From the IMG/VR virus record IMGVR_UViG_3300037119_001766, positions 1 through 22,028 of that record: 22,028 bases of DNA, one strand, 5' to 3'. The stretch is from a virus. Positions 2,607 to 19,382 of this stretch are shown piece by piece. A model generated the notes under the pieces. The model saw nothing but the letters and a program-made list of their open reading frames with translations, did not search any database and had not been told where the DNA came from. A program made the translations under genes and the position numbers. Numbering within the stretch: position 1 is the stretch's first letter; every line of letters starts with the position of its first letter.

Positions 2607-2634
2607 GGGAACTTTTTCACGCGAGAAAGTTCCC
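2607..2634 (+). repeat. Dispersed hairpin element, copy 1 (core 2610-2631)
   Basis: GGGAACTTTTTC, loop ACGC, GAGAAAGTTCCC: a 12-base-pair stem with one T/G position, lying between the stop at 2592 and the ParB-like gene at 2660. The core (AACTTTTTC, four bases, GAGAAAGTT) recurs at 8054 and 16754. There is no T-tract after it, so it is not a simple terminator. The gene's own ribosome site (GGGAGGT, 2648-2654) lies outside the stem in this copy. Confidence 0.85.
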
Positions 2635-2659: not shown

Positions 2660-3604
2660 ATGACACCAGTTATAGCATCGGTAGTCAGCCGCAACAGCCG
2701 TAAGGCGACGCCCAATCTGCGTGAACTGGCTAACCAGTTCATCGCAGATAACGTCCCTACGAAAATGTTGACGGTAGACTACAGCTACGCCCGAGCCATG
2801 ACGCCGGCTCGTATGCGAGCATGGGACAGTCGTGGGTGGGACGGCCGTAAAGCCGGTACGCTCGCGGCCAGTATGCGTAACGATGGCACATATGCCGTGA
2901 TCGACGGTCAGGGCCGGGTGTACCTGGCACTGAAGCAGAACATCGAAACCGTGCCATGCCGTGTATACATCGACCTGACAGTCGGCCAAGAGGCTGAGCT
3001 GTATCTCGCATTCAACAGGGATCGGGCGGCCACCCAACCTGTTGAGGATTTCAAGGCCAAGATCATATCTGGCGACAAGCAGGCGATAGACATTGCATCC
3101 ATCCTCAGCGATGTCGGCCTCAAAGCCGAGCGTGGTGGGCATAAGACCCATGCCACACAGGCCATCAGTACCCTTGAGGACATGTATCAGCGGCTCGGCC
3201 GTGATGTTGTGATCGTCACGTTGAACATGCTACGATCCATCTGGCCAGCGGATGGTACGGCTCTGACAGCCGACATGATCCGTGGCATGGCCGCATTCGC
3301 TGTGCGCTACGGCCCACGGTTTGCCCCGAAGCCAGCCATGGATGAGCTGGTACGAAAGCTCGGCGGTTGGACGCCGACACGTATCAAAGGGCAGGCCAAC
3401 ACGCGCCGAGAACTCAGCCCGGGCATGAGCCCCGAGCAGGCAGTAGGCCAAACCATCGCCGCCGTGTACGACAAGGGCCGACGCAACAAGCTGCCACCGT
3501 GGCAAGCATACGTGCAGGGCCCAGCAGCTAAAGAGACCGCCAGCGCTCGGTCTCTCAGGTCAGCGGCCACACGCAAAGCCAACGCCGCAACATCCAAACC
3601 GTAG
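2660..3604 (+). CDS. ParB-like nuclease-fold protein
   Basis: ATG 2660 has GGGAGGT at 2648-2654. Residues 36-100 carry the ParB/sulfiredoxin-like pattern: MLTVDYSYARAMTPARM, then GTLAASMRNDGTYAVIDGQGRVYLA, where VIDGQGR corresponds to the conserved DGxxR block of ParB-type domains. The rest is helical with a basic, Ala/Arg-rich tail (RSLRSAATRKANAATSKP). Phage proteins of this type bind DNA or have nuclease or NTPase activity; which applies here is unknown. Stand-alone proteins with this arrangement are frequent in actinophages. It is the first gene after hairpin copy 1 and is followed nine bases later by the UvrD-like helicase, so it may share regulation and a DNA-metabolism role with it. 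Confidence 0.75.
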   Translation: MTPVIASVVSRNSRKATPNLRELANQFIADNVPTKMLTVDYSYARAMTPARMRAWDSRGWDGRKAGTLAASMRNDGTYAVIDGQGRVYLALKQNIETVPCRVYIDLTVGQEAELYLAFNRDRAATQPVEDFKAKIISGDKQAIDIASILSDVGLKAERGGHKTHATQAISTLEDMYQRLGRDVVIVTLNMLRSIWPADGTALTADMIRGMAAFAVRYGPRFAPKPAMDELVRKLGGWTPTRIKGQANTRRELSPGMSPEQAVGQTIAAVYDKGRRNKLPPWQAYVQGPAAKETASARSLRSAATRKANAATSKP

Positions 3605-7042: not shown

Positions 7043-7504
7043 CTACGCCGCAGTCGGCTCCGGCTCCGGCTCGGCCGTGGTAGGTGCAGTGCCGGCGACC
7101 ATGCGGCCCGCCAGTTCAGCCGCTTCCTCCTTCGACACGCCAGCCGCCTGTGCATCACGGAACGCCTTCATCAGAGCCTTCATCGTCTGCGAGCGGCTCT
7201 TGTTGCGATCCTTCTGTGCAGCCTCGCGTTCCTCTTTCGAGGCGTACTTGCTGTGACGAGTCGTGGTTGTCTCGGGGATCGGAATGCCCAGGAACCCGAA
7301 CAGCAGATCACGGACGTAGGGTCCGACCGGCTTGTTGTCGGCGGCTTTCGCTTCCGACTCGAACCGCGATTTGACATCGGGTGGAACCGGGACGACAATG
7401 TACGAGCGGGCCTTGGCCGTGTCCGCCGCTGCCTGGGCGCCCTCGACGCCCTCCGATCCATTGGTGTTCTGTTCTGCGGCATCCGTCGATGGATTCCGTG
7501 CCAT
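7043..7504 (-). CDS. Putative ribbon-helix-helix-like regulator (153 aa)
   Basis: The only leftward gene in the window. Start ATG at 7504 with AAGGAGGT (7522-7515) ten bases upstream; the in-frame ATG at 7537 lies inside the -10 of its promoter and can be excluded. After a polar N-terminus, the core RSYIVVPVPPDVKSRFESEAKAADNKPVGPYVRDLLFGFL has the strand, helix, turn, helix layout of ribbon-helix-helix (MetJ/Arc-type) DNA-binding proteins. It is followed by a very basic helix region (KYASKEEREAAQKDRNKSRSQTMKALMKAFRDA) and an acidic Pro/Glu tail (TAEPEPEPTAA). Transcribed away from the early block with its own promoter, it is a good candidate repressor or switch protein. The fold call is by pattern only. 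Confidence 0.6.
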   Translation of the reverse strand: MARNPSTDAAEQNTNGSEGVEGAQAAADTAKARSYIVVPVPPDVKSRFESEAKAADNKPVGPYVRDLLFGFLGIPIPETTTTRHSKYASKEEREAAQKDRNKSRSQTMKALMKAFRDAQAAGVSKEEAAELAGRMVAGTAPTTAEPEPEPTAA

Positions 7505-7535
7505 GTGTCTCGTGACCTCCTTTGTGGTCACTTCC

Positions 7536-7564
7536 ATTATGCGCCCACCGCCATGCATTGTCAA
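7536..7564 (-). promoter_or_regulatory. Leftward sigma70-type promoter
   Basis: On the minus strand: TTGACA (7564-7559), 17-base spacer, CATAAT (7541-7536). The -35 is perfect and the -10 matches five of six. Predicted transcription start is near 7529, giving a short leader that contains the ribosome site at 7522-7515 of the leftward gene. Confidence 0.75.
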
Positions 7565-7569
7565 CAGCC

Positions 7570-7579
7570 GGCACGCGGA
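7570..7579 (+). promoter_or_regulatory. Operator-like direct repeat, left copy
   Basis: GGCACGCGGA, preceded by ATTGTCAACAGCC, whose TTGTCAA contains the -35 of the leftward promoter. The same ten bases recur at 7659, again just after a TTG-CAAC. Two copies, each beside the -35 of a divergent promoter, suggest binding sites for a shared regulator. Confidence 0.45.
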
Positions 7580-7590
7580 ATTCACCACGA

Positions 7591-7600
7591 ATTGTACAAT
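7591..7600. repeat. ATTGTACAAT palindrome
   Basis: A perfect ten-base palindrome between the two divergent promoters. It may be a dimer-binding site, but a ten-base palindrome can occur by chance in AT-richer intergenic DNA. Confidence 0.3.
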
Positions 7601-7649
7601 AGTATTTTCACGGTCAGTCCTAACACCCGCTATGCGTGCAAAGTGGGTA

Positions 7650-7679
7650 TTGACAACTGGCACGCGGATAGCGTACCAT
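7650..7679 (+). promoter_or_regulatory. Rightward promoter of the early block
   Basis: TTGACA (7650-7655), 18-base spacer, TACCAT (7674-7679). Expected start near 7686, only about ten bases before ATG 7696, so the mRNA would be nearly leaderless. The layout closely matches the promoter at 10967. Confidence 0.65.
7659..7668 (+). promoter_or_regulatory. Operator-like direct repeat, right copy
   Basis: Second GGCACGCGGA, starting four bases after the rightward -35, so a protein bound here would cover the promoter. Same orientation as the copy at 7570, 89 bases apart. Confidence 0.45.
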
Positions 7680-7695
7680 TGTAGAAGGTATAGCG

Positions 7696-8037
7696 ATGTC
7701 ACCAAACAGACCCAGCCAAGAGTGGATACAGAAGTGTGTAGCAGAGGTCACAGCCAAGTACAGGCCCGACCCCCGCTGTGATCTTCCGGCCTGGGAGGGT
7801 GGCCCGCCATGCGAATTGCGAGCCTGCCATCTCGATGCACACGTAGCAACCGGCCCGTTCACTCAACCGGAGTGGCTGTTCGATGGGCCGATCCCTAGCA
7901 ACACAAGAAAGGGTGTCGTCTACCATGTAAAGGTTTCACGCTTCGGCGGCCGTGCCGAATGCACATGCCCCGGCTACCGTTACAACGGCCGTGACTGTAG
8001 CCACATTCGCCGTGTACGGGAGGTCGTCCAGAAGTGA
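7696..8037 (+). CDS. SWIM zinc-finger protein (113 aa)
   Basis: ATG 7696 is the first gene after the rightward promoter; a weak AAGGT lies at 7685-7689, at or before the predicted transcript start. The C-terminus has the SWIM pattern C-x-C-x(n)-C-x-H: Cys89, Cys91, Cys101 and His103 in AECTCPGYRYNGRDCSHI. SWIM fingers bind zinc and act in DNA or protein binding. The N-terminal part has further Cys and His residues (RCDLPAWEGGPPCELRACHLDAH), similar to small Cys/His patterns seen in actinobacterial proteins. As the first early gene it could be a regulator or host-takeover factor; that is inference. Confidence 0.75.
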   Translation: MSPNRPSQEWIQKCVAEVTAKYRPDPRCDLPAWEGGPPCELRACHLDAHVATGPFTQPEWLFDGPIPSNTRKGVVYHVKVSRFGGRAECTCPGYRYNGRDCSHIRRVREVVQK

Positions 8038-8053
8038 ACCCGTACCCCGTACC

Positions 8054-8075
8054 AACTTTTTCAAGGGAGAAAGTT
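8054..8075 (+). repeat. Dispersed hairpin element, copy 2
   Basis: AACTTTTTC, loop AAGG, GAGAAAGTT, ending three bases before ATG 8079. Here the ribosome site AAGGGAG (8063-8069) sits in the loop and the 3' arm, so folding of the RNA would hide it. The core is 22 bases, identical to copies 1 and 3 except in the loop. Confidence 0.85.
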
Positions 8076-8078
8076 CAA

Positions 8079-8339
8079 ATGGTCGCGCATTCAATCAAGC
8101 GCACAACTGACATTGCCAATGAGGTCGCACAACTGCTCGACGAAACGTCGCCTGGTGATGACGATGAGGTTCGTGACGCCGAAGTAAACGAGCCCGACCT
8201 CAAGGAGTCGATGGTGGGGTTCTGGCTCAAGTACGGTGGGCTGTGGTATCAGGTGCAGGTCCAGCCAGAGACCACCGAACCGCCGGACGAGGACGCCGGT
8301 GTCGGCGCTGACGACGACGAAGAAGTTGAGAGTGCCTGA
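8079..8339 (+). CDS. Small acidic protein (86 aa)
   Basis: ATG 8079 is chosen over the in-frame GTG 8034 because AAGGGAG lies nine bases upstream of it and the hairpin element ends just before it; starting at 8034 would place the element inside the coding region. The protein has a basic N-terminal helix (VAHSIKRTTDIANEVAQLL), an acidic linker, a short aromatic segment (VGFWLKYGGLWYQVQVQ) and a very acidic C-terminus (DEDAGVGADDDEEVESA). No family recognised. Such acidic small phage proteins can mimic DNA or bind host factors, but nothing here shows it. Confidence 0.6.
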   Translation: MVAHSIKRTTDIANEVAQLLDETSPGDDDEVRDAEVNEPDLKESMVGFWLKYGGLWYQVQVQPETTEPPDEDAGVGADDDEEVESA

Positions 8340-8415
8340 TAGCATCAACATACTTGGCGCCGTAATCGTCATCGCACTGGTGCTCGCCGCATTCATCTAC
8401 TTGGTCGAGAAGTAG
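8332..8415 (+). CDS. 27-residue single-span membrane peptide
   Basis: GTG 8332 overlaps the end of the upstream gene by eight bases. The product MPDSINILGAVIVIALVLAA continues FIYLVEK: a short polar N-terminus, about 18 uninterrupted hydrophobic residues, and a charged Glu-Lys end. The ribosome site is weak (GTTGAGA), so translation probably depends on coupling. The clean membrane segment with correct stop and position argues for a real gene; role unknown. Confidence 0.5.
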   Translation: MPDSINILGAVIVIALVLAAFIYLVEK

Positions 8416-8418
8416 CGA

Positions 8419-8493
8419 GCGGGCTGGGGCCCATAAGGCGTGTTGACACCGCATGTCTTGGATGCAGCTGGTTACTGCATCCCCCCAGCCCGC
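8419..8493 (+). ncRNA. Structured RNA: 11-bp closing stem plus 8-bp hairpin
   Basis: GCGGGCTGGGG (8419-8429) pairs perfectly with CCCCAGCCCGC (8483-8493). Inside, GGATGCAG (8460-8467) pairs with CTGCATCC (8475-8482) around the seven-base loop CTGGTTA, and the two stems abut without a gap, so they could stack like acceptor and T arms. The loop is not a TTCRANN T-loop and there is no convincing anticodon arm, so I do not call it a tRNA. It ends two bases before the tRNA-like element at 8496. Confidence 0.5.
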
Positions 8494-8495
8494 AG

Positions 8496-8558
8496 GGACG
8501 GATGTTTAGGTCAGCCGGTCGCTCCATTCCGGCGTAGGTTCGAGTCCTGCTCCGTCCA
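8496..8558 (+). tRNA. tRNA-like element lacking a normal D arm (degenerate or atypical)
   Basis: GGACGGA (8496-8502) pairs perfectly with TCCGTCC (8551-8557), with A8558 in the discriminator position. The T arm GTAGG-TTCGAGT-CCTGC is canonical with one G-U pair. Only 31 bases separate the arms instead of about 42. GCCGG (8514-8518) pairs with CCGGC (8529-8533), leaving a ten-base loop TCGCTCCATT, no variable loop and no D stem. CCA could be an anticodon (Trp) but the loop is abnormal. CCA is not encoded at the 3' end. It could be a decaying tRNA, a tRNA-like signal or a fragment used as an attachment site. The ribosome site of the next gene begins right after it. Confidence 0.5.
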
Positions 8559-8570
8559 CCGGGAGGTCAG

Positions 8571-14129: not shown

Positions 14130-16558
14130 TGGAACTAGACCAGTTTCTTGATGCGGTCATTACCGCCCCACCCGCAGAGAACCCAGACGAAGCCGCTGGG
14201 TTCTTTTTGCTTGTAACCGGCCCACCTACAGGTGGATGGTTTGAGCAGTGGTTCCGCTGGCCTACAGAGCGGGAACAAATCCTGCGCGTAATTGCTGAGG
14301 CACGTGGAACAAACAACGTCTGGTTCTCGTCCTACCTGTTCAAGGGCCCATCGTCTGTGAAGGCGAACGCGCTACCAACACGTACACTACAGGCAGACCT
14401 AGATGAAGCGGACATTACAAGGCTTCCAATACGGCCGTCTATCCTAGTACGGTCCAGCCCGAAACGCCATCAGGCGTACTGGTTCCTAACGGAACATCTG
14501 CCGCTAGAGGAACATGAGACACTCTCGCGCAGGCTGACATACGCCATCTCTCGCGCAGATCATAGCGGCTGGCCGGTCGGACGAAAACTACGCATCCCCG
14601 ACACGTTCAATTTCAAGTACATAGCCGGGCCGCAGCCGGTCGAAGTGATCGACGCGCCGCTGCTCATGCACGAGCCGGTATCGTTCGAGGCCCTGCCAGA
14701 GCCCGTAGTACCCCGTGCTAACGGTACAGCCGACGATGCGTGGCTCGATGCGGTCGAGAACATCGACCTCGAGATTGGGCCCAATGAACTGCTACTCACG
14801 TTCCGTGACAAGGGACTAAGCGCTAAAGTCTACAACATGTATAACACAACGACCAGCGACCGATCCAAGTCGCTATGGGCGTTGATGTTGGGCCTGTTCA
14901 AGTGTGGCGCGGAACGCGATCAGGTGTTCTGGCTGGCGTTACACTCAGCCAACAACAAGTTCAAGGACCTACGTACCAACGCCCGGCGTGAACTGGCCAA
15001 GGACGTACTACGGGCCCAGGACCTCATCCGCTCTGGCGGCGAAGGGCCACGCGACAAACTCCTGCAAGACCGTTCGCTCACGCCGTCCATCGTGCGTAAG
15101 CAGACTATGCTAGCCCGCGTCTTAGAGTACATGAAGGCTGGCGGCTCGTTCATGCATACCATCGACGAGAACGCATGGTACGTGCGACACGATGTGGGCC
15201 GGCCGATACGTCTCAGCGCCGGCTCACGATATCTGGCCGTTCTGATGGACGTGGAGTACGGGCTCAACCCCACCGAAGATGAGTACAAGTTCATCGCTAA
15301 GGGGTTGGAGAACCATTGCCTGTCTCTACCCGACACCACACTAGAATCCAACCTGTCGTGGTATGACCACCCTAACCGAACCCTGTACCTGCACTCAGGT
15401 CGGCGCGACGTGTTCAAGGTCACAGCCACATCCGTAGAGACAGTCGTCAACGGCACAGATAACATAGTGTTTCCGTGGAAGCCAAGCGTAGAGCCGTTCC
15501 GTCTCGGCAACCCTGACCGTGAATGGGCTGAGAAAGTGTTCGGGCATTCATCCACCGGCGATGCTCTCGGCAACCTGATCGGTCTAGATCGGGCACCTGC
15601 ACTAGCCATGCTGAAAGCGTGGATGGTGTTCTTGCTGTTCCGCAACGTGAGCCCGTCGCGCCCCCTTCTCGCTACGTTCGGTCAGCCCGGCTCTGGCAAG
15701 TCTACACTGTTCAAGAAGGTGTACGCTCTGCTGTACGGCCAACACCGTGCGGTATCCGGCGTCACCAACCAGGACGAGTTCGATCAGGGTGCAAGCCAAT
15801 ACCCACTTCTCGTCTTGGACAACGCTGACCAGTGGGAGCGGTGGCTACCAGATCGTTTAGCACAATCTGCTGGCGATCTAGAAGTGTCCCGGCGTATGCT
15901 GTACACAGATGGCGACAACTTCATCCTGCGCCGAACAGCCATGCTGGGAATCACGGCACACAATCCCAAGTTCGCACGCGAGGACGTTGCGGATCGTCTC
16001 CTACTCCTAACATTCGAGCGGTTGCCCGAAGATCGTTGGCTACCTGAGCAAGCGATCAAGGAAGATATTATCCTACACCGCAGTAGCATATGGGCCGGCA
16101 TTGTAGCGGACGTGCAGCGCACACTATCATCTCCACTGCCTGAACGTGGCCCTAACTTTCGCATCGAGGACTTCGCACGGATAGGGTTGTGGATCACCAA
16201 CGCCACAGGCGACGCGCCGAAATTCGTGAACGCACTCAAACAGATTCGCTACGGACAACGGTCGTTCTCACTGGAAGAAGATTCAATGCTAGTGAGTGCG
16301 TTACGTCGGCTCGTATCATCTTCACCCGAAGGGCTGACTGACAGAAGTCCCGGCCAGTTGTGGGGTGGGCTAGAGCGATACTCGCTAGACAAGCAAGCAT
16401 TCGCTATGGCGTACAAGAACTCGCAAGCACTAGGCAAGAAACTACTTGTGCTGCAAGACGCACTCAAACTGATTTTCGATATTGAGTGGCGATACAACTC
16501 GGAAGTGGGTACCCGTCTATGGACAATTCGAGAACGAGAGGATCAGAATGGCCACTAG
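14129..16558 (+). CDS. Primase-helicase (AEP/RepB-like primase + P-loop helicase)
   Basis: An 809-residue fusion. Residues 25-165 look like an archaeo-eukaryotic-type primase/RepB-like domain: FEQWFRWPTEREQILRVIAEARGTNNVWFSSYLF, the metal-binding D90-x-D92 (LQADLDE), His114 in KRHQAYW, and KLRIPDTFNFKY matching the RVPGTxNxK block. A middle helical region follows. The C-terminal part has Walker A GQPGSGKST (K524) and Walker B LLVLDNAD (D564), with LGITAHNP and DRLLLLTFE as later motifs, as in replicative superfamily 3 or D5-like helicases. It would prime and unwind at the phage fork. ATG 14129 overlaps the upstream stop. An intrinsic-terminator-like hairpin lies within codons 17-27. Confidence 0.88.
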   Translation: MELDQFLDAVITAPPAENPDEAAGFFLLVTGPPTGGWFEQWFRWPTEREQILRVIAEARGTNNVWFSSYLFKGPSSVKANALPTRTLQADLDEADITRLPIRPSILVRSSPKRHQAYWFLTEHLPLEEHETLSRRLTYAISRADHSGWPVGRKLRIPDTFNFKYIAGPQPVEVIDAPLLMHEPVSFEALPEPVVPRANGTADDAWLDAVENIDLEIGPNELLLTFRDKGLSAKVYNMYNTTTSDRSKSLWALMLGLFKCGAERDQVFWLALHSANNKFKDLRTNARRELAKDVLRAQDLIRSGGEGPRDKLLQDRSLTPSIVRKQTMLARVLEYMKAGGSFMHTIDENAWYVRHDVGRPIRLSAGSRYLAVLMDVEYGLNPTEDEYKFIAKGLENHCLSLPDTTLESNLSWYDHPNRTLYLHSGRRDVFKVTATSVETVVNGTDNIVFPWKPSVEPFRLGNPDREWAEKVFGHSSTGDALGNLIGLDRAPALAMLKAWMVFLLFRNVSPSRPLLATFGQPGSGKSTLFKKVYALLYGQHRAVSGVTNQDEFDQGASQYPLLVLDNADQWERWLPDRLAQSAGDLEVSRRMLYTDGDNFILRRTAMLGITAHNPKFAREDVADRLLLLTFERLPEDRWLPEQAIKEDIILHRSSIWAGIVADVQRTLSSPLPERGPNFRIEDFARIGLWITNATGDAPKFVNALKQIRYGQRSFSLEEDSMLVSALRRLVSSSPEGLTDRSPGQLWGGLERYSLDKQAFAMAYKNSQALGKKLLVLQDALKLIFDIEWRYNSEVGTRLWTIREREDQNGH
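14178..14208 (+). terminator. Intrinsic terminator-like hairpin inside the primase 5' end
   Basis: AGAACCCAG (14178-14186) pairs with CTGGGTTCT (14196-14204) across a nine-base loop, followed by TTTT then G. This is a textbook intrinsic terminator, located 49 bases into the coding region. Translating ribosomes would prevent it folding; without translation the transcript could stop here. It may be an attenuator or a leftover. Confidence 0.55.
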
Positions 16559-16754
16559 AATACGCGAGCAGCGGGTAGTACCGCTAATGGTCTACATTGA
16601 GCCGACGCTCCACAAGGGTGTCATCGAAGTCTTGCAGAAGGAGCCGCAATCATCATCAACATATCTCCGCGCACTGGTTCTACGCGATCTACTACAGCGC
16701 GGGCTCATCACAAATGATGAGATTGCCGAAGCTCTCGGTGGGGCAGCGGCGTGA
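16548..16754 (+). CDS. Small ribbon-helix-helix-like protein (68 aa)
   Basis: ATG 16548, with GAGAGGATC before it, overlaps the end of the primase-helicase gene by 11 bases. The body VPLMVYIEPTLHKGVIEVLQKEPQSSSTYLRALVLRDLLQRGLI has a strand, a helix starting at about residue 21, a turn with SSS and a second helix, the typical CopG/Arc arrangement. It would bind DNA as a dimer. The stop codon shares its last base with hairpin element copy 3. It may autoregulate or control the polymerase gene downstream; inference. Confidence 0.6.
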   Translation: MATRIREQRVVPLMVYIEPTLHKGVIEVLQKEPQSSSTYLRALVLRDLLQRGLITNDEIAEALGGAAA

Positions 16755-16775
16755 ACTTTTTCAAGTGAGAAAGTT
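16754..16775 (+). repeat. Dispersed hairpin element, copy 3
   Basis: AACTTTTTC, loop AAGT, GAGAAAGTT, starting on the last base of the upstream stop and ending 11 bases before ATG 16787. No other ribosome site is evident, so the GTGAG in the loop and 3' arm may serve, as in copy 2. Downstream are the zinc-finger gene and the polymerase. Confidence 0.85.
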
Positions 16776-16786
16776 GCGGCACGCCC

Positions 16787-17014
16787 ATGCCCCGCATAGT
16801 CTACATGCCCAAGTGCATAGCGTGTGGCACGATAGATGGTGTTCACATATGCCCGGTATGCGACCAGTTTGCATGCTACGAATGCACCGCCCTCTTCTAC
16901 AGTCTGGACGACTACAACAGTGACACTGACGCTACCTGTACCCACAAGCAGTACGTCACCCCAGATTATCCTGGCTGGGAAGGGGCCAATCTCGGGGCCA
17001 AAGTGTCATCCTAA
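16787..17014 (+). CDS. Small zinc-finger protein (75 aa)
   Basis: ATG 16787. CIACGTIDGVHICPVCDQFACYECTALF contains three CxxC pairs (CIAC, CPVC, CYEC), enough for one or two zinc sites, followed by an acidic aromatic stretch (LFYSLDDYNSDTDATCTHKQYV). A rearranged or LIM/RING-like small finger is possible; no specific family is recognised. It ends seven bases before the polymerase start and is probably co-transcribed with it. Another frame is open across the same DNA but its translation is Ser/Thr-rich and unlike any family, so this frame is preferred. Confidence 0.65.
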   Translation: MPRIVYMPKCIACGTIDGVHICPVCDQFACYECTALFYSLDDYNSDTDATCTHKQYVTPDYPGWEGANLGAKVSS

Positions 17015-17021
17015 ATCCCGG

Positions 17022-19382
17022 ATGTACGCAGGTTATGGCGACCCTTCTTACGGCGTGCTATTGCTCGGCATCGCACCGGGCGAGCGTGAGATGGAGAAGG
17101 GTCGGCCGTTCATCGGCCAGTCAGGACAATTGCTAGACGGGCTACTCAAATACGTGGACTGGCCACGCGAGCAAACATACGCCACCAACCTGATTTGCTA
17201 TTGGAACAATGCACCTTCTGCCGAAGAAGTTGCCGGCTGCGGTGAACGGCTGCGTGCCGAGATTGAGTGGGCCCAACCCAAGGTCATAGTCTCTCTCGGC
17301 GGGATTGTGACGAGCCGTCTAACCGGCACAGATCCCAAGCGTAAGACCCTACGTGGGTCAACGCTGTGGTCGAAAGAGTTCGGCTGTTACGTCATCACGA
17401 CTCGGCACCCTGCCGGTGCGCTGCGCGCCAATTCAATGTCGATGGCACAGGACATCATCCGTGACCTCGAGAAGATTCCGCTCGTTCTGACGTGGCCAAT
17501 GGATGGTTCAGTTGCCAACGTTGTGGTCGATGAAATCATCACCGACGAGCCGACCGCACAGAGGATGCTTGATGCTCTACCGCTTGACCGGCCTGTTGTC
17601 ATTGACATTGAAACTAGCTCCAAATCAACGGATGAAACCGAAACGGACGTGTTCGTTGATGCGCTGCTACGTATCGGATTCCGCTGGGAGGATATGGCAG
17701 GTCGAGAGCATATTGTCGTTTGGCGACCTGGAGCTTGGTCCCGGGACCTTGTATGGCCCGCCGCCAGATGGCAGTTCCAATTCGGTACTTACGATACAAT
17801 GGGAATATGGCGGGAACTGGGCGTCCGCCTCCCCATTGTCGAGGATCTCGGACTCAAGTCTTACTGCTGCGATGAAAGGTCTGGGCAACACGGCCTCAAG
17901 ATTCTTGCGAGAGAATATCAAGCGGCTGGATGGTACGATGAAGCCCTAGAGAAAGACAAGCGGCGCGGCACGATGGATCGCCTCCCCGACGATGTGATCG
18001 ACGAGTACAACGGCAAGGACGTAGCGTACACTGGCCGCATGGACCCCATCCTGACAGCCAAGATGGAACGCGACGGCACTACCGGCCTGTACCGTGATCT
18101 GCTGATCCCCGCGTACAACATGTACCGTGACGCACAATACTACGGCATTGGCGTAGACTTTAGCCGGCTCGTTGACTTGGGGTACCTGACGTGGTTGCCC
18201 CGATACAACGACATGGTTGAGGAATTAGTCCAGCACGCTACAGACCTAGGGTTTCAAGGGGACATCAACCTCAACTCTAACATACAGCTGAAGAAGCTAA
18301 TGTTCCAGATTGTCGGCTTGACCCCGATAAAGAAAACCCCCAAGGGCGCACCCTCCCTAGATAAAGAGGTTCTCGACCGGCTGGATCACCCGTTTCTACG
18401 CGAACTCAAGAGTTTCCGTGCTCTCGATAAGATCATGGATTATGTGTTCTCGATTCAACGGGAGCGCAAGCTAGATGGCCTTGTTCACCCATCCGCGCTA
18501 CTACACTCCGTTCGTACCGGGCGACGGTCGTACAAGCGTCCCGCCATGCAAACGATTCCGCAGGAGTACACGGTCGGCGCCGAGTTCGCAGAGATATCCA
18601 GTGTTTTTGTACCGCACAATCCAAAGACACACGGTATGCTCAAGGCGGATTACGAGCAGATCGAGGTATGGGAAGCGTGGGTTCTGTCGCGTGATCCTGT
18701 GCTGCTTGAGCATCTGCTATCTGGCGACATTCACTCTGCCACCGCAGAAGCAGCCTTCAAGATCAGCCGACTCGATTACGGCTATCCTAACCACCGAAAG
18801 AACCCGCTATGGGACGTGAAACGTCAGGGTGCTAAGAAGGTTAGGTTCGGGCTACAGTACGGTGAGGGTGCTGAGAAACTATCATCCCCACCACCGGTCG
18901 GCCTAGGCTGCACCACACGCGAGGCGCAGGAATTCATAGACAACTACTGGTCGGTGTATGACCGCTACGCAAGGTGGATGGTGGAGATTCAAGCTGAAGC
19001 GCGCAAGGAGGGCGAACTACGCACACCGACCGGCCGCATCATGCGGTTCCCCATCATTCTCGACCATAAGCAACTACGTCAGGCGATCAATTTTCCTATC
19101 CAGTCCATTGCATCCGATCACGTTCTCATAGCCGCAATCGAACTACACGAGCGGCTGCGAGAGTACAACTCGTTCTTCCTACTGGACGTACACGATGCGC
19201 TGTGGATCGAGTACGATCTGCGCTTCGAGCGAGAAGTGTGCGAGCTGGTGCGTGAAGTGATGGAACGCCCGAAGTTTCCCGGCTACCCCAACATTCCCGC
19301 TGAGATAGCCGTCGGGCCCAACCTACGTAACATGACCAAGGTGCCGCGAAAGGACAAGTGGGAGCTATGCCTCGCCGCGTAA
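17022..19382 (+). CDS. Uracil-DNA glycosylase / DNA polymerase A fusion
   Basis: A 786-residue fusion in three parts. Residues 5-150 are a family-4-like uracil-DNA glycosylase: LLLGIAPGEREMEKGRPFIGQSGQLLDGLL, NLICYWNNAPSAEEVAGC, PKVIVSLGG and TRHPAGALR (His129). The first Cys pair of the usual iron-sulfur cluster is absent with this start; the later Cys pair (14 apart) is kept. Residues 190-350 are a 3'-5' exonuclease with DIET (D195, E197), FGTYDT and YNGKDVAYT (D333). The rest is family A polymerase: motif A KADYEQIEVW (D543), motif B RQGAKKVRFGLQYG (R601, K605), motif C VHDALWIEY (D725). It replicates phage DNA with proofreading and possibly uracil removal. ATG 17022 has no good ribosome site. 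Confidence 0.9.
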   Translation: MYAGYGDPSYGVLLLGIAPGEREMEKGRPFIGQSGQLLDGLLKYVDWPREQTYATNLICYWNNAPSAEEVAGCGERLRAEIEWAQPKVIVSLGGIVTSRLTGTDPKRKTLRGSTLWSKEFGCYVITTRHPAGALRANSMSMAQDIIRDLEKIPLVLTWPMDGSVANVVVDEIITDEPTAQRMLDALPLDRPVVIDIETSSKSTDETETDVFVDALLRIGFRWEDMAGREHIVVWRPGAWSRDLVWPAARWQFQFGTYDTMGIWRELGVRLPIVEDLGLKSYCCDERSGQHGLKILAREYQAAGWYDEALEKDKRRGTMDRLPDDVIDEYNGKDVAYTGRMDPILTAKMERDGTTGLYRDLLIPAYNMYRDAQYYGIGVDFSRLVDLGYLTWLPRYNDMVEELVQHATDLGFQGDINLNSNIQLKKLMFQIVGLTPIKKTPKGAPSLDKEVLDRLDHPFLRELKSFRALDKIMDYVFSIQRERKLDGLVHPSALLHSVRTGRRSYKRPAMQTIPQEYTVGAEFAEISSVFVPHNPKTHGMLKADYEQIEVWEAWVLSRDPVLLEHLLSGDIHSATAEAAFKISRLDYGYPNHRKNPLWDVKRQGAKKVRFGLQYGEGAEKLSSPPPVGLGCTTREAQEFIDNYWSVYDRYARWMVEIQAEARKEGELRTPTGRIMRFPIILDHKQLRQAINFPIQSIASDHVLIAAIELHERLREYNSFFLLDVHDALWIEYDLRFEREVCELVREVMERPKFPGYPNIPAEIAVGPNLRNMTKVPRKDKWELCLAA

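Follow-up and report, generated by a model that had tools for sequence, protein, structure and literature searches.

Short repeats associated with gene starts (SAS and ESAS) were described in phages in 2011. In cluster K mycobacteriophages, SAS are 13-bp sequences, GGGATAGGAGCCC, found 3-7 bp before start codons, and ESAS are 17-bp imperfect inverted repeats, separated by a spacer of 4-13 bp, that also lie near starts (PMC3203893; PMC12699233). The ESAS consensus differs between subclusters (PMC3203893; PMC12699233). Deviations in the ESAS arms do not support RNA pairing, and Pope et al. judged DNA-binding sites to be likelier (PMC3203893). The stoperators of cluster A are 13-bp asymmetric sites, present in more than 20 copies per genome, at which elongation stops once they are bound; the protein that recognizes them is monomeric and has two DNA-binding domains (PMC9283540).

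The window considered here, that is, the whole stretch of DNA analyzed, is a complete virus record of 22,028 bases, in which the element AACTTTTTC-N4-GAGAAAGTT occurs on the plus strand at 2610-2631, 8054-8075, and 16754-16775. This 22-base element is very probably a genuine control site, since it stands at three gene boundaries and recurs at the same spot in a relative that is clearly distinct. In layout, it resembles both ESAS and stoperators, but by sequence it falls within neither definition, and the functions discussed below are predicted ones. With ESAS, it shares the character of dispersed inverted repeats near the starts of non-structural genes, mostly in one orientation, with conserved arms and a variable spacer. 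ESAS, however, have 17-bp arms and are accompanied by SAS, whereas the present element measures 22 bp in total, has arms of 7-9 bp, lacks SAS, and is known in far fewer copies. No match to GGGATAGGAGCCC with up to two mismatches was found in the window, so that the analogy with SAS drawn in an earlier, sequence-only reading is better replaced by one with the inverted repeats (ESAS) that those phages also carry. Stoperators are likewise short intergenic sites, oriented with transcription and located away from promoters (the placement of copy 2 being ambiguous here); unlike the present dyad, with its three copies in 22 kb, they are asymmetric 13-bp sites. Their consensus is GATGAGTGTCAAG, which has no match in the window with up to two mismatches. 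The Arc-type ribbon-helix-helix (RHH) repressor of phage P22 recognizes a dyad operator of about 21-22 bp. The likeness here is that a small Arc-like gene adjoins copy 3 and that the predicted operator is a dyad of similar size; the difference is that the RHH fold was unconfirmed by fold search.

The arms of the three copies are nine bases each and identical throughout, and the loops are ACGC, AAGG, and AAGT, respectively. Shuffled sequence yielded none of these elements, against three observed. Recounting upheld the sequence-only description of three exact copies with the same 18 arm bases, their common orientation, and their distances to the next ATG of 28 (copy 1), 3 (copy 2), and 11 (copy 3) bases, although with only three copies a uniform orientation has a chance of one in four. 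The element is the sole repeated palindrome family with 6-bp arms in the window, where neither half-site, AACTTTTTC or AACTTTCTC, occurs alone elsewhere, and no further copies were found with up to three mismatches in the whole 22,028-base record.

Copy 1 reads GGG-AACTTTTTC-ACGC-GAGAAAGTT-CCC, its core being 2610-2631, and the GGG/CCC flanks, which are absent from copies 2 and 3, make positions 2607-2634 a 28-base palindrome. Downstream of it lies the plus-strand gene for a ParB-like/DUF6551 protein (2660-3604), with a ribosome site, GGGAGGTC, at 2648. Copy 2 (AACTTTTTC-AAGG-GAGAAAGTT, 8054-8075) ends 3 nt 5' of ATG 8079, the start of a plus-strand gene for an acidic protein (8079-8339). An alternative start for this gene, GTG 8034, overlaps the upstream stop codon (GTGA) and is preceded by GGGAGGTC at 8018, with a spacing of 9 that is within the range of other genes. 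Since this GTG and its strong ribosome site lie before copy 2, the copy may be intragenic: if GTG 8034 is used, it would fall within the first codons, and it would be intergenic only with ATG 8079. Copy 3 (AACTTTTTC-AAGT-GAGAAAGTT, 16754-16775) directly follows the gene for a 68-aa Arc/RHH-like protein (16548-16754, plus strand), the A of whose stop codon TGA (16752-16754) is base 1 of the copy. It precedes two further plus-strand genes, the first encoding a Cys-rich zinc-ribbon-like protein (16787-17014, starting at ATG 16787) and the second a fusion of uracil-DNA glycosylase (UDG) and DNA polymerase A (17022-19382; start uncertain, an upstream GTG being possible). The placement of every copy between a stop codon and the next ATG, as first reported, thus holds for copy 1, holds for copy 2 only if its gene starts at ATG 8079, and for copy 3 includes an overlap of one base with TGA. 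No ribosome site was found between the element and the zinc-ribbon gene in either the window or the relative described below, so that in both phages this gene may depend on coupling to the gene upstream.

Relatives were found by search with a polymerase alignment. One of them, contig L019 (only 4.8 kb), shares with the window the gene order primase, small Arc-like protein, zinc-ribbon protein, and UDG/polymerase A fusion, at identities of 50, 44, 29, and 65%, respectively. It carries a 22-base dyad, AACTTTTCAGAATAAAAAAGTT, at L019:2359-2380, between the small Arc-like gene and the zinc-ribbon and polymerase genes, starting, like copy 3, on the A of a TGA codon. Matches of this kind are expected 3-7e-5 times in the contig, and the conserved synteny marks the site as orthologous to copy 3. 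The search for more copies, proposed from the sequence alone, accordingly gave none in the 22 kb record and one dyad in a relative. Two phages with 65% identical polymerases, from an uncultured clade with a UDG-polymerase replication module, therefore appear to share a dispersed palindromic control site of their own.

The arms of the element survive in L019 only in their outer parts, AACTTTT/RAAAGTT, and alignment of the four sites leaves columns 1-7, 15, and 17-22 invariant and the centre free. The left half-site is AACTTTTTC in the three window copies and AACTTTTCA in L019, and the right half-site is AACTTTCTC in the three and AACTTTTTT in L019; across the four sites, the half-sites deviate independently. 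Pair 7-16 is T-G in the window copies, where the constancy of this mismatch had been remarked upon, and T-A in L019, so that the 7-bp dyad of the relative is perfectly symmetric. In L019, pairing is lost at 8-15 and 9-14, and none of the nine pairs is altered on both sides in any of the sites, although with four sequences this is a weak test for compensatory change.

Beyond these two phages, the exact pattern was found among all viral contigs only in L004, a 9.1 kb contig that matches the window at 100% identity along 7,564 nt and, being the same phage, offers no independent confirmation. A relaxed palindrome was found in three unrelated contigs, at a single site in each, and these were taken as chance; a still looser pattern likewise gave one site per contig among the matches listed, a few of these contigs also matching a window protein. 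Relatives with 35-50% polymerase identity mostly keep the gene order and lack the element, and the records of thirteen relatives held two forward matches with two mismatches, about equal to the reversed-pattern control and hence no excess. Other palindrome families have two copies at most in the 16 loci of the clade that were compared, and the two-copy families of L122 and L123 fall within genes. The genome contigs searched gave only a weak match to a Chloroflexota UDG. One of the two forward matches, a 7-N8-7 dyad, TACTTTTCTACGGAAAAAAGTA, one base per arm off the element, was observed at L122:3826-3847, in the gap before a nuclease gene and beside a promoter-like TTGAAT-17-TACTAT; it is suggestive only, and may be a diverged site or chance.

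The reading preferred here, at a probability of about one half, is that a sequence-specific protein, as a dimer or tetramer, recognizes the 22 bp as double-stranded DNA with inverted half-sites. Such a site is favored over a sequence-specific RNA hairpin because the arms are kept while inner pairs and the centre are lost, compensation is lacking, and T-G gives way to T-A. The same argument, from independent half-site deviation to a DNA site, was made for ESAS by Pope et al. (PMC3203893). The sequence-only reading had preferred RNA to a palindromic operator and had named compensatory arm changes as a sign of it; no such changes occur among the four sequences, and the T-A pair and two broken inner pairs of L019, together with the preserved arm sequence, reverse that preference. 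Against a DNA site, only four instances are known, three of them near-identical within one phage; the window copies have a single orientation and a T-G asymmetry, both superfluous in a plain dimer site; the half-sites lie 16 bp apart centre to centre, which is unusual for a simple dimer; and there is no visible promoter on which an operator could act.

An mRNA hairpin that controls the downstream gene at the level of translation, processing, or attenuation, through an RNA-binding protein or by its structure alone, is possible though doubtful. The copies lie mid-operon, in one orientation and close to starts, and the window 22-mers fold at about -6.7 kcal/mol, T-G being a pair in RNA. The stem of copy 1 can be extended in RNA to 16 bp (2603-2638; MFE z -3.9), the structure of copy 3 encloses the start codon (MFE z -4.8), and in stability both folds rank within the top few percent of 70-nt windows; the L019 site gains four flanking pairs, and the putative ribosome site of copy 2 falls within the loop and 3' arm. 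These extensions are weak, however, when set against composition-preserving shuffles of the flanks, which gave, depending on flank length, about 0.02-0.06 for copy 1, 0.18-0.52 for copy 2, 0.06-0.53 for copy 3, and 0.08-0.38 for L019. The L019 22-mer folds at just -2.1 kcal/mol after the loss of its two inner pairs, copy 2 loses its fold when 82 nt of context are considered, and Rfam covariance models gave no match at gathering score at the copies. No pair is changed on both sides across the four sites, and the loop varies while the arm sequence, to which A-form helices give poor access, is kept. A particular form of hairpin control, in which a single protein of the phage (perhaps the polymerase itself, perhaps the zinc-ribbon protein) would bind identical stems set between stop and start codons in three mRNAs and so couple the translation of replication genes, is unlikely. 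An intrinsic terminator, or a promoter read by a phage or alternative sigma factor, would suit a hairpin located between genes and directional repeats near starts, but is very improbable: neither an intrinsic terminator nor a recognizable sigma-70 promoter was called at copies 1-3, no T run follows any copy, and a promoter at copy 2 would place the transcript start beyond ATG 8079. Terminator-like sites elsewhere in the window do not coincide with the copies, and good TTGACA-type promoter matches (7564, minus strand; 7650 and 10967, plus strand) precede genes away from them.

If the element is a DNA site, the protein would bind as a dimer or tetramer to AACTTTTTC-like half-sites, with an invariant core AACTTT, on either side of the free centre. 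Because the genes around each copy form a co-directional block, a protein bound there may act on passing transcription, as a roadblock or through a stoperator-like pause; alternatively, it may act on a promoter of an unrecognized type. In either case, it could co-regulate the genes downstream of the three copies, namely those for the ParB-like protein, the acidic protein, and the zinc-ribbon/polymerase pair. This agrees with the sequence-only suggestion of a real regulatory element that may co-regulate a set of genes. The first candidate reader is the Arc-like protein, whose gene ends at copy 3. A profile of its 68-aa family matches Arc repressor (E=0.008), whereas with a structural model of moderate confidence (pLDDT 75) Foldseek found no RHH match and no PDB match of weight, and the gene persists in relatives without the element. 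Three sites, an adjoining candidate reader gene, and a natural variant make the choice between DNA and RNA recognition directly testable.

The second candidate reader is the ParB-like protein encoded after copy 1. Phage-plasmid N15 has dispersed partition-type sites that secondarily affect gene regulation, and the copies might similarly be parS-like sites for the ParB-like protein; inverted repeats scattered over several gene blocks, one of them directly 5' of the ParB-like gene, fit such a scheme. It is nevertheless improbable, as the proteins searched included no recognizable ParA, the match of the ParB-like protein is to DUF6551, a PDB search gave no relative of it, and no homologue of it was found in the related loci searched (L019 spanning only 4.8 kb). 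Chance, or a recent non-functional duplication, would account for just three copies confined to one phage, but is scarcely credible given arms that are identical though the centres differ and an element kept at the orthologous boundary in L019. The short arms and differing centres also led to rejection of a site-specific recombination site with a lox-like 8-bp spacer.

Several other features of the phage were observed. The putative ribosome-site octamer GGGAGGTC recurs in the window before genes at 2648, 8018, 8561, and 13288, and a heptamer, GGAGGTC, before genes at 3604 and 12334. The region 7480-7700 holds divergent TTGACA promoter matches for a minus-strand gene (7043-7504) and a plus-strand gene at 7696. 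Two tandem tRNA-like structures lie at 8415-8561, where ARAGORN calls no tRNA: the first (8418-8494) is a three-arm cloverleaf-like fold of -46.7 kcal/mol (z -4.5), and the second (8496-8558) is a sub-cut-off Rfam tRNA match (25.5 of 29 bits) with an acceptor and a T arm and no D arm. The polymerase A encoded at 17022-19382, with its N-terminal family-4-like UDG domain, is shared across a clade of uncultured phages whose gene order is largely fixed as SNF2, Cas4-like, AAA, primase, Arc-like, zinc-ribbon, polymerase, and RuvC.
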